Assembly: GCF_005843985.1 (NCBI RefSeq)
Contig: NZ_CP040463.1
Span: 980,001-1,044,000 of the forward strand
Direction of reading: 5' to 3'
Length of the DNA: 64,000 bases
From: Caminibacter mediatlanticus TB-2
GTDB lineage: Bacteria; Campylobacterota; Campylobacteria; Campylobacterales; Nautiliaceae
Under the pieces are notes generated by a model. The model saw nothing but the letters and a program-made list of their open reading frames with translations, was not told the DNA's origin and did not search any database. Positions 42,732-46,643 of this stretch are shown piece after piece. The stretch's first letter is position 1, and every line of letters starts with the position of its first letter. The position numbers and the translations under genes are program-made.

Positions 42732-43841
42732 ATGATTGGGCTATATGAAAAATCAAAACAACGCTTAAAATCATTATCACCTGATAAAAATATAGAAAAA
42801 ATTTTAGAAGTTGAAGGAATTAGTAGAAGAGATTTTTTAAAATGGGTTAGTGTTACAACTGCAATGCTTGGACTTCCTGGATTTTTTGAACCATTAGTTG
42901 CTCAAAGTATAAATGCTTTAAATAAAATACCTGTTATTTGGATGAATTATCAAGATTGCGCAGGAAATAGTGAATCAATTTTAAGGGCAAGTAAACCTAC
43001 AATTGATGAGATTATTATAAATTTAATTTCTCTTGAATTTCACGAACTTCTTATGGCACCATCAGGTACTCAAGCAGAAAATCAACTTGAAGAGACAATT
43101 CAAAATTATGAAGGTGAATATTTATTATTTGTAGAAGGTTCAATTCCACTTGCAGATAATGGAGTCTATGGAACTATTGGTCCAAGTGGTGAAACATATA
43201 AAGACCATTTATTAAGACTTGCAAGTAAAGCAAAAGCAATTATAGCTGTTGGAAATTGTGCAAGTTTTGGAGGAGTTGTAGCAGCAAACCCAAACCCAAC
43301 GGGAGCAACAGGAGTTATGGGAGTTGATGGAATAAATGTGCCAATCATTAATTTACCTGCATGTCCTGTTAATCCAGAAACAATGATAGGTGTATTAATT
43401 ATGTATGCATTAACTGGAGAATTACCAGAGCTTGATAGCTTAAAAAGACCTTTTTTTGCATATGCATCAAGAATTCATGATAGATGTGAGAGAAGAGTTC
43501 ATTTTGATGCAGGAGAGTTTGTTGAAAGTTTTGGAGATAATGCTTCACAAAGTGGGTATTGTTTATATAAAGTTGGATGTAAAGGACCATTTACATTTAA
43601 TAATTGTCCAACGGTTAAATTTAATGATACAAGTTGGCCAGTAGATGCAGGGCATGGATGTATTGGATGTAGTGAGCCTGGATTTGTTGATAAATTTGGA
43701 AGTTTTGAAAAACCATTTGTTGAAGAGAATATAAATCCAGCAGCTGAGAGCATAAAAGATATTCCTTTTGTAGCAACTACTATACTTGCAGCATTTAGCT
43801 ATGAAAAAATAAAAAATATTATAAGGAAAGAAAATGGCTAA
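42732..43841 (+). CDS. hydA: NiFe hydrogenase small subunit with altered proximal-cluster motif
   Basis: Electron-transfer subunit of a membrane-side uptake hydrogenase, 369 residues. A twin-arginine signal (SRRDFLKW, 31-38, then a hydrophobic stretch) predicts Tat export. The usual C-x2-C pair of the proximal [4Fe-4S] cluster is C76-A-G-N79: the second cysteine is Asn. The later ligands look intact (GNCASFGG, LPACPVNP). The distal and medial cluster sites are also complete: HDRCERR, SGYCLYKVGC, NNCP and HGCIGC. It overlaps the large-subunit gene by 8 bases. Confidence 0.93.
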   Translation: MIGLYEKSKQRLKSLSPDKNIEKILEVEGISRRDFLKWVSVTTAMLGLPGFFEPLVAQSINALNKIPVIWMNYQDCAGNSESILRASKPTIDEIIINLISLEFHELLMAPSGTQAENQLEETIQNYEGEYLLFVEGSIPLADNGVYGTIGPSGETYKDHLLRLASKAKAIIAVGNCASFGGVVAANPNPTGATGVMGVDGINVPIINLPACPVNPETMIGVLIMYALTGELPELDSLKRPFFAYASRIHDRCERRVHFDAGEFVESFGDNASQSGYCLYKVGCKGPFTFNNCPTVKFNDTSWPVDAGHGCIGCSEPGFVDKFGSFEKPFVEENINPAAESIKDIPFVATTILAAFSYEKIKNIIRKENG

Positions 43842-45543
43842 TAAAATAGTAATAGACCCAATTACAAGAATTGAAGGACATTTAAGAATTGAAGTAGTAG
43901 TTGATGATAATAATATAGTAATAGATGCTTACTCATCATCTACAATGTTTAGAGGAATTGAGCCAATTTTAAAAGGGAGAGATCCAAGAGATTGTGGGCT
44001 AATTGCTATGAGGATATGTGGAGTTTGTACTGTAACTCATTATCAACGCTCAATTGAAGCAGTAGAAAATGCATATAATATTGTTGTGCCAAAAAATGCA
44101 AGGCTTGTTAGAAATTTAATTCAATCAACCCTTTTTATGCATGACCATTTAGTCCATTACTATCATCTCCACTCTCTTGATTGGATTGATGTAATTTCAG
44201 CTTTAAATGCAAATGAAAATGATGCTTTAAATGAAGCAACAAAATATGCAAATATTGCTGGGGTTACACCTTATATTACACTTGATGATATAACATCTAT
44301 AAAAGCAAAATTAAAAGCACTAAATGATGCTGGAAAACTTGGAATATTCTCAAAAGGATATTGGGGAAATAGTAGCTATAAATTAACTCCTGCTCAAAAT
44401 TTAATGGCAATTACAAACTATTTTAAAGCATTTGAGATACAAAGGTTTCTTGGAAGTATGATGGCAACTCTTGGTGGAAAAGACCCACACCCTCAAAGTA
44501 TAGTAGTAGGAGGAGTTACATCTATTAAAAATATTTTAGATAATGAAAAGATGACAAATTTTTATAATTTAGCTTTAAATGTAAGAGATTTTATAAAAAG
44601 GGCTTACATTCCAGATATGTATATGTTAGCAGATGTGTATAAAGATGATATGATAAATCAAGTAGGAGGAGGGCTTAAAAACTTCTTAGTTTATGGAGGT
44701 TTTCCACTTGAAGATGGAGATTTAAATAGTGTAGAAATGTTTTTCCCACAAGGAGTAATTTATAATGCTAATTTAGATGATATTAAAGACTTTGATGCTA
44801 ACTTAGTTACAGAAGATGTAACACATGCTTGGTATAGTGGAGGAAATGATAAACCATATGAAGCTGATACTATCCCAAATTATACAGGATTTAAAGAAGT
44901 CGTTGATAATGTTGCATATTTAGATACTGATGGAAAATATAGTTGGATAAAATCGCCTCTATATAATGATGAGAGAATGGAAGTAGGACCTCTTGCAAGA
45001 ATGCTTGTTGGATACAAAAAAAGTAATACAATAAAAACTTATATGCAAAACTTTTTAGATAAGTCTAATACAAATATAAATGATTTTATCTCAGCTGTAG
45101 GTAGGACAATTGCAAGGGCTATTGAGAGTGAAATTATTTCTGATAAGATTTTTGATTTTTTTGATGAATTAAAGCTAAATTTACAAAATGATACTTCAAG
45201 CGTTGCAAGCTATACTGAAATTCCAAACACGCAAGGTTTTTCTACCGAAGAAGCACCAAGAGGAGCACTTGGTCATTGGGTAAGAATTGAAAATTCAAAA
45301 GTAGCAAATTATCAAACGGTAGTCCCATCAACTTGGAATGCAGCACCACGAGATTATAAAGGAAGAAGAGGTGCTTATGAAGAATCATTAATTGGAGTTA
45401 AATTATCAAATATAGATGAACCTCTTGAAATTTTAAGAGTTGTTCATAGTTTTGACCCGTGTATTGCATGTGCAGTTCATGTAATGGATGTTAGAGGAAA
45501 AAAATTATCTCAATTTAATGTTAATTCAATTTGTGGAATATAG
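43834..45543 (+). CDS. hydB: NiFe hydrogenase large subunit
   Basis: Catalytic subunit of 569 residues. Both nickel motifs are intact: RICGVCTVTH (C62, C65) and DPCIACAVH (C543, C546). A 20-residue C-terminal tail follows His549, the usual substrate for a maturation protease, ending SICGI. No protease, b-type cytochrome or hyp genes lie in this window. It would oxidise hydrogen in the periplasm together with the small subunit and pass electrons to a partner, probably the cytochrome encoded next. Confidence 0.95.
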   Translation: MANKIVIDPITRIEGHLRIEVVVDDNNIVIDAYSSSTMFRGIEPILKGRDPRDCGLIAMRICGVCTVTHYQRSIEAVENAYNIVVPKNARLVRNLIQSTLFMHDHLVHYYHLHSLDWIDVISALNANENDALNEATKYANIAGVTPYITLDDITSIKAKLKALNDAGKLGIFSKGYWGNSSYKLTPAQNLMAITNYFKAFEIQRFLGSMMATLGGKDPHPQSIVVGGVTSIKNILDNEKMTNFYNLALNVRDFIKRAYIPDMYMLADVYKDDMINQVGGGLKNFLVYGGFPLEDGDLNSVEMFFPQGVIYNANLDDIKDFDANLVTEDVTHAWYSGGNDKPYEADTIPNYTGFKEVVDNVAYLDTDGKYSWIKSPLYNDERMEVGPLARMLVGYKKSNTIKTYMQNFLDKSNTNINDFISAVGRTIARAIESEIISDKIFDFFDELKLNLQNDTSSVASYTEIPNTQGFSTEEAPRGALGHWVRIENSKVANYQTVVPSTWNAAPRDYKGRRGAYEESLIGVKLSNIDEPLEILRVVHSFDPCIACAVHVMDVRGKKLSQFNVNSICGI

Positions 45544-45551
45544 GAGTAATT

Positions 45552-46643
45552 ATGAAACAAAAAATTTTAAATGTTTTTTTTCTTTCCATTATTTTTATTG
45601 GTTGTGGAGGTGGAGGTAATAATGATTCAAATTCACAAACAACAATTTCATCACAAGCAAAACCAGAAACTACTTTACAACAAGCTTCAGACTCAAATAT
45701 ACCTATAAAACTATTAACTTACCCATTTAATGATGATTGTACTCAAGAGCAAGTCTTTACTTTACTTGGCTCAAAAAGAACAGTAAAAGCTATGGTATTT
45801 GATGTAAATTCATTTACTGAACTAAATAGTACTTCTGTTAGTTTAGAAAAAGAAAATTTTTCAAAAAACTTAATATATAATACTCAAACAAAAAAATATG
45901 AACTAAATTGTATTGATTTAGTTTATACAAATAGAGCAGATATTTATCCAAGATATAATGTTGTTTTAAATGAGGGAAATATTACGATTAAAAAAACTAT
46001 TTCATTATTCGATAATAAAGCTACAAATAATTGTATGGCATGTCATGCTTCAAACTCTGGATTTAATTTAGCTTTACCTTCTACTCCTGCAAATTTAAAT
46101 GATGCGGAAATGGATTTTAAAACAAATATTTTAAGACTTCACGATGAAAGACATCCAACGGCAGTAAAAGATAATCTTTTAGCACTTCAAAAAAAAGGAA
46201 AAAATTATAATGAAGCAGGCTTAGAAGCAACTTCAAAAACAATGATTGTTTCTTGTGTTGATTGTCATGGAAGCAATGCAATCTCAAATAGTGGTTTAAA
46301 AAATGTACCATCTTTAACAAAAGCACTTCATAGTGTTCATACTAATGTTAATGATGTAAAACAATTTGGAATTAAATGTTTAACTTGCCATGGAGGAGAT
46401 ACCATTCCTAAAATGTTTAATGGTAAAGTTATGCATCCACTTGATGCAAGTTGGAAAGATGAAGATGGTCATGGAGAATTTGTTGAAAATAATGGTCCGG
46501 TTAGTTGTACTCTTTGCCATGGTGTTGATTTAAAAGGAAGCAATTTATCAAATGGAGTTAGTTGTTATAAATGCCATGGTAATGAGTGGGGTAGTTTTAG
46601 TATTACCCCTACTAACATTACCTGGGTAAAAGAGGATGATTGA
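45552..46643 (+). CDS. Pentaheme c-type cytochrome lipoprotein
   Basis: 363 residues. The lipobox IFIGC18 predicts a lipid anchor. Five CxxCH heme sites are visible: CMACH (161), CVDCH (235), CLTCH (276), CTLCH (319) and CYKCH (338). Between signal and first heme lies about 140 residues of unique sequence. I chose ATG 45552 with ggagt ahead; an earlier TTG at 45531 overlaps the hydrogenase gene and would spoil the signal. The immediate position after hydB suggests it replaces the b-type cytochrome usually encoded there as electron acceptor. Confidence 0.88.
   Translation: MKQKILNVFFLSIIFIGCGGGGNNDSNSQTTISSQAKPETTLQQASDSNIPIKLLTYPFNDDCTQEQVFTLLGSKRTVKAMVFDVNSFTELNSTSVSLEKENFSKNLIYNTQTKKYELNCIDLVYTNRADIYPRYNVVLNEGNITIKKTISLFDNKATNNCMACHASNSGFNLALPSTPANLNDAEMDFKTNILRLHDERHPTAVKDNLLALQKKGKNYNEAGLEATSKTMIVSCVDCHGSNAISNSGLKNVPSLTKALHSVHTNVNDVKQFGIKCLTCHGGDTIPKMFNGKVMHPLDASWKDEDGHGEFVENNGPVSCTLCHGVDLKGSNLSNGVSCYKCHGNEWGSFSITPTNITWVKEDD

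Follow-up and report, generated by a model that had tools for sequence, protein, structure and literature searches.

When the genes of a periplasmic group 1 [NiFe] hydrogenase are followed directly by one for a five-heme lipoprotein, what serves as the enzyme's electron partner? Such a gene set lies on the plus strand of the window (the whole 64-kb stretch of DNA analyzed here). The first gene, hydA (positions 42732 to 43841), encodes a 369-aa small subunit with a Tat signal (RRDFLK; 18.3 bits to TIGR01409, above its 16.7 cut-off) and matches to TIGR00391 (401.5 bits) and PF14720. It is followed by hydB (43834 to 45543), which encodes a 569-aa large subunit (PF00374, 621.4 bits) with the motifs RICGVC and DPCIACAVH and a 20-aa C-terminal extension beyond the last motif histidine, and then by a gene (45552 to 46643) for a 363-aa pentaheme c-type cytochrome with five CxxCH sites and a lipoprotein-like N terminus. 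Based on the PF00374 large subunit, its cysteine motifs and C-terminal extension, and the Tat-type small subunit, HydAB is a group 1 [NiFe] uptake hydrogenase.

The hydA and hydB reading frames overlap by 8 bp, and the pentaheme ATG (45552) lies 8 bp past the end of hydB (45543), behind an AGGAG-like site that overlaps the HydB stop. Because of this spacing and this site, the three genes very likely form one transcript. A promoter and terminator scan found no terminator, and promoter-like sites were near background (31 versus a shuffle mean of 26.8). Downstream lies a convergent gene, read by inspection as that of an inorganic pyrophosphatase. The open reading frame, the 8-bp gap, the heme sites, and the lipoprotein-like start agree with the initial annotation, which had placed a lipid-anchored cytochrome with five CxxCH sites directly after the hydrogenase. 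Using two HydCs and three HydDs as tblastn queries, we found neither protein anywhere in the window; an ordinary hydA-hydB-hydC-hydD set lies ∼280 kb away in the same genome, near C1:742-746 kb, with HydC at C1:744880.

The N terminus of the pentaheme protein (MKQKILNVFFLSIIFIGCGGGG) resembles a lipoprotein signal. Its lipobox-like FIGC (45594 to 45605, plus strand), which ends at Cys18, departs slightly from the lipobox consensus by the F at −3. The residue at +2 is Gly, and the Cys-Gly pair is invariant in the 8 aligned rows (Gly after the lipid Cys in 8/8 homologues). Under the Escherichia coli lipoprotein sorting rule, Gly after the lipid Cys directs a protein to the outer membrane, and by analogy this residue may point to the outer membrane for the pentaheme. 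The heme sites, all on the plus strand, are CMACH (residue 161; 46032 to 46046), CVDCH (residue 235; 46254 to 46268), CLTCH (residue 276; 46377 to 46391), CTLCH (residue 319; 46506 to 46520), and CYKCH (residue 338; 46563 to 46577). A chance origin of these sites was ruled out, as 0/200,000 protein shuffles had more than two. Across all six frames of the window, the pentaheme gene is the single open segment of >60 codons that contains CxxCH. In an alignment of 33 sequences, C63 and the five heme sites are invariant. Outside CxxCH, the invariant histidines number exactly five (H197, H260, H263, H295, and H307), which fits five bis-His hemes that carry electrons. A first structure model was poor (pLDDT, 41.7). 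A second model (pLDDT, 67.3) gave Ig-like matches over residues ∼46 to 157, and the N-domain is thus a predicted Ig-like beta-sandwich (top Z, 8.9). The fold search with the second model returned no multiheme cytochrome among the matches listed, a result that barely probes the heme half and does not argue against a fold of this kind, and a PDB sequence search with the pentaheme gave no convincing match.

The pentaheme has relatives within its phylum, the nine-heme “WNDLGMHC” lipoproteins, which are related to MtrC/MtrF domain II/IV (PF22113) and are homologous to the pentaheme in the N-domain and the flanking hemes. We found 29 nine-heme-type proteins, one of them with eight sites, and aligned the first 12; in 12/12, the pentaheme sites align with hemes 1, 2, 3, 8, and 9. 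Unlike these proteins, the pentaheme has only five CxxCH, lacks any counterpart of nine-heme sites 4 to 7, and is tied to hydrogenase genes. PF22113 scores 27.6 bits on the window pentaheme, below the cut-off of 30, reaches an E value of ≤0.01 in 6/7 pentahemes, and scores 50.8 bits on one nine-heme relative. Genes for nine-heme lipoproteins occur at further loci (L129, L126, L128, L161, and L162). L129 has three within ∼10 kb, and at the others a two-component system and a protein with TSP3-like repeats are frequent neighbors. A contig scan of further genomes yielded one distant multiheme protein, in a deltaproteobacterial metagenome-assembled genome, with no NiFe hydrogenase recognized among the listed flanking open reading frames.

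The pairing of hydrogenase and pentaheme is a conserved variant, not an isolated oddity. The full pentaheme is present in eight genomes from three family groups (the window genome, G000, and G042, G271, G488, G516, G546, G511, and G562), and it adjoins hydrogenase genes in all eight, so that the search of other genomes suggested by the initial annotation found co-occurrence in every case. In G562, the contig begins inside hydB, and hydA, if present, would lie beyond the contig end. Gene order is hydB-pentaheme in seven genomes and pentaheme-hydA-hydB-hydD in one (G042). These counts come from several searches of overlapping genome sets. The window pentaheme matched 8/60 genomes at an E value of ≤0.001, its own included, with G042 the sole other match over most of the length. 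The G042 pentaheme matched 24/397 genomes of the phylum at 1e-20 and only three at ≤1e-58. A three-row profile matched 8/175 genomes of one family at 1e-50 (six below 1e-120, plus two nine-heme proteins), 3/18 of another family at 1e-50 (two of them partial, the third being G042), and 1/21 of the window's own family. In a separate search of the 397 genomes, the three best HydB matches (61 to 100% identity) fell in G000, G271, and G042, the same three genomes that hold the three best pentaheme matches.

Within a family other than the window's own, the surroundings of the pentaheme gene vary. At three loci there (L157, L158, and L159), a two-component system lies downstream, and genes for mono-/diheme lipoprotein cytochromes directly follow the pentaheme gene (L157:8637-10367, L158:7739-9393, and L159:6678-8361); these lipoproteins possibly continue an electron wire. 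Nickel/cobalt ECF transporter-like genes lie near the pentaheme gene at L125:3603-7627 and L160:2947-5425 (a DUF4198 match, the rest by inspection), and the L156 locus runs off its contig.

For comparison with other hydrogenases of the phylum, we fetched 40 regions containing the best HydB matches and some lower ones as controls; the underlying HydB search had matches in 81/100 genomes, and the comparison mainly covers its higher-scoring loci. After removal of L091, whose HydB is split by N, we analyzed 46 HydA-HydB pairs, comprising 36 HydC-linked, 7 pentaheme-linked, and 3 with fused HydA (L083 to L085). HydC lies directly 3′ of HydB in 36/36 HydC-linked loci versus 0/7 pentaheme loci with a complete HydB, and tblastn found no HydC at the eighth pentaheme locus, at the contig end in G562. 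The earlier statement that a b-type cytochrome usually neighbors the uptake hydrogenases of this phylum therefore held in every comparison locus.

The loss of HydC is matched by a change in HydA. The 54-aa C-terminal tail of the window HydA (43677 to 43838, plus strand) has no counterpart of the histidine that HydC-linked HydAs carry in the tail helix, and it is less hydrophobic. The tail-helix His (as in GIAIHAA) is present in 36/36 HydC-linked HydAs versus 0/7 pentaheme-linked ones, and the best 19-residue tail hydropathies occupy separate ranges (1.55 to 2.11 versus 0.77 to 1.39). In Wolinella HydA, a histidine in this helix is required for menaquinone reduction. The window tail scores 1.13 and might still touch a membrane, because it remains weakly hydrophobic.

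HydA also varies around its iron-sulfur clusters. The medial-cluster motif is NNCP in 6/7 pentaheme-linked HydAs (NNCG in one) versus NNCS in 36/36 HydC-linked ones, and Pro at this motif also occurs in 1h2a, the best PDB match of the window HydA. At the proximal cluster, the second Cys of the CxGC motif is replaced by Asn in the window protein (CAGN, C76 to N79; 42957 to 42968), as it is in 28/36 HydC-linked, 7/7 pentaheme-linked, and 3/3 fused HydAs; across a large hydrogenase clade, this cluster may have an atypical fourth ligand or lack one. In the fused proteins of L083, L084, and L085 (e.g., L085:7764-10199, minus strand), HydA lies behind a pyridine-nucleotide-disulfide oxidoreductase and a BFD-like [2Fe-2S] domain. 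We found no Tat motif in these fused HydAs, which are candidates for a cytoplasmic NAD(P)H-linked relative of the group 1 hydrogenases.

In a 46-row HydB tree, the seven pentaheme-linked rows form one group (support, 100/99; present in 100% of 200 bootstrap trees), and 0/500 shuffles scored as low for this single-group result. The clade is nested inside HydC-linked enzymes, with the window HydB on a long branch (0.66); the closest outside row, L060, is the HydABCD copy of G042 itself. Because the seven HydBs form one group among HydC-linked enzymes, the most likely history is a single loss of HydC and a single gain of the cytochrome. With a common origin for all seven, the correlations described above are worth about one evolutionary event rather than seven. 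A rearrangement is suggested by the unusual gene order in G042. The occurrence in three family groups, the HydB tree, and the presence in 1/21 genomes of the window's family suggest that the module spread horizontally. Foreign base composition as a sign of recent arrival was rejected, as third-position GC is 0.10 to 0.14 in the three genes versus 0.10 to 0.12 in four neighbors. A natural comparison is available in G042, where the nearest HydC-bearing relative (L060) shares a genome with a pentaheme version (L055).

Based on these observations, we conclude that HydC has probably been replaced by the pentaheme lipoprotein as the electron partner of this periplasmic hydrogenase. HydAB would be exported folded via Tat, the HydA tail would no longer dock HydC, and the lipoprotein would instead hold the HydAB dimer close to a membrane. 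Electrons would then pass from the distal FeS cluster to the five bis-His hemes and on to other periplasmic or outer-membrane cytochromes. We infer the physical complex, the direction of flow, the membrane side, and the next carrier from sequence. The initial annotation had suggested that the electrons enter a periplasmic or extracellular cytochrome path instead of passing directly to quinone. The cytochrome path is likely, given that HydC and the tail His are gone and the pentaheme is conserved, whereas the extracellular half is unsupported in the window genome because no MtrB-type porin matched (PF11854, MtrB/PioB porin; 0 matches there and above the cut-off in 1/8 pentaheme genomes); an extracellular path in this genome is possible. 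We regard an outer-membrane or extracellular role of the pentaheme as doubtful. The same applies to the more ambitious idea of a horizontally spread wire from H2 to the outer membrane, in which HydAB would sit on an outer-membrane pentaheme and, independently of quinone, exchange electrons with mono-/diheme lipoproteins and with an external acceptor or donor, for example sulfur or iron minerals.

A genome-wide pattern for closely spaced CxxCH pairs, which misses wider-spaced hemes, matched only two places, the pentaheme gene and C1:754654-754998. The latter (L163:4654-4998) encodes a small four-heme lipoprotein-like cytochrome and lies near a second hydrogenase cluster, of the energy-converting type, and a HypF-like gene (names by inspection).

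Several other readings of the locus have to be weighed. Within the pentaheme-partner reading, electrons from H2 could pass through the pentaheme to a NapC/NrfH-type cytochrome and then to menaquinone, reaching the quinone pool indirectly, which competes with the claim that quinone is bypassed. The window genome does encode a PF03264 (NapC/NrfH) protein (C1:724216, 79.6 bits), but PF03264 matches occur in 4/8 pentaheme genomes, G000 among them, so this protein is no constant companion and the route seems unlikely, if conceivable. Outside that reading, HydAB could pair with a HydC from another locus, with the pentaheme serving otherwise or as an extra side exit. The HydC at C1:744880 would be at hand for this, and in Nautilia sp. 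PV-1 a second AB pair has been proposed to share one HynC (PMC10092268, in the portion available). We nevertheless consider such sharing quite improbable, as the tail His is gone in 7/7 pentaheme-linked HydAs, tail hydropathy is lower, and the pentaheme is adjacent in 8/8 genomes with two gene orders.

The pentaheme could also work in reverse, carrying electrons from outside or periplasmic donors to HydAB for H2 production. Multiheme chains are reversible in principle, and as the genome already has an uptake HydABC, the second hydrogenase might do a different job. Against this, relatives of HydAB are known as uptake enzymes (PMC5357620, in the portion available), no donor system was found, and the window genome has no match to an MtrB-type porin; reversed flow is therefore very unlikely. 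Finally, an unrelated multiheme gene might lie beside a second hydrogenase by accident, and nine-heme relatives do occur without an adjacent hydrogenase (L126 to L131). This is extremely improbable given that the genes adjoin in 8/8 genomes, which span three family groups and show two different gene orders, and chance adjacency was ruled out by that 8/8 count together with the best HydB and pentaheme matches falling in the same three genomes. Replacement of HydC by the pentaheme remains our preferred reading.

Energy metabolism in this phylum is founded in part on quinone-linked uptake hydrogenases. Should electrons take the pentaheme route, H2 oxidation would supply acceptors in the periplasm or outer membrane with no quinone loop involved, and the energy yield would differ. 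The exchange of cytochrome b for a pentaheme in one clade, accompanied by a corresponding loss in the small subunit, would be an example of an enzyme rewired to a new electron acceptor.

Among known systems, the periplasmic [NiFe] hydrogenase of Desulfovibrio is likewise a HydAB without cytochrome b, and its partner is the tetraheme type I cytochrome c3; the enzyme described here would similarly donate to a multiheme c cytochrome. Unlike in Desulfovibrio, the putative partner, a lipoprotein with five hemes, belongs to a different family and is encoded beside the enzyme, and the clade derives from HydC-linked ancestors. PF02085 (class III tetraheme cytochrome c3) scores 21.7 bits on the window pentaheme, below its cut-off of 22.9. 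We found no description of a hydrogenase-pentaheme pair of this type in the accessible parts of the open-access literature. A hydrogenase cluster adjoining a multiheme cluster in Deferribacter autotrophicus is a loose precedent (PMC6896113, in the portion available). Within the same phylum, Nautilia profundicola also has a second periplasmic enzyme without HydC, a soluble uptake hydrogenase with no anchor subunit, but that enzyme is described as being of the NiFeSe type and nearest to those of Deltaproteobacteria, and the available text mentions no cytochrome partner (PMC2628731). The uptake hydrogenases of N. profundicola and Nautilia sp. PV-1 are described, in the available portions of both reports, without a cytochrome c partner (PMC2628731 and PMC10092268). 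The closest comparison is with the quinone-reactive HydABC of the Wolinella/Sulfurospirillum type, which shares the Tat-exported HydA and the same HydB motifs (PMC5357620, in the portion available). In contrast to that enzyme, the pentaheme clade has neither HydC nor the tail His and carries a pentaheme lipoprotein in their place.
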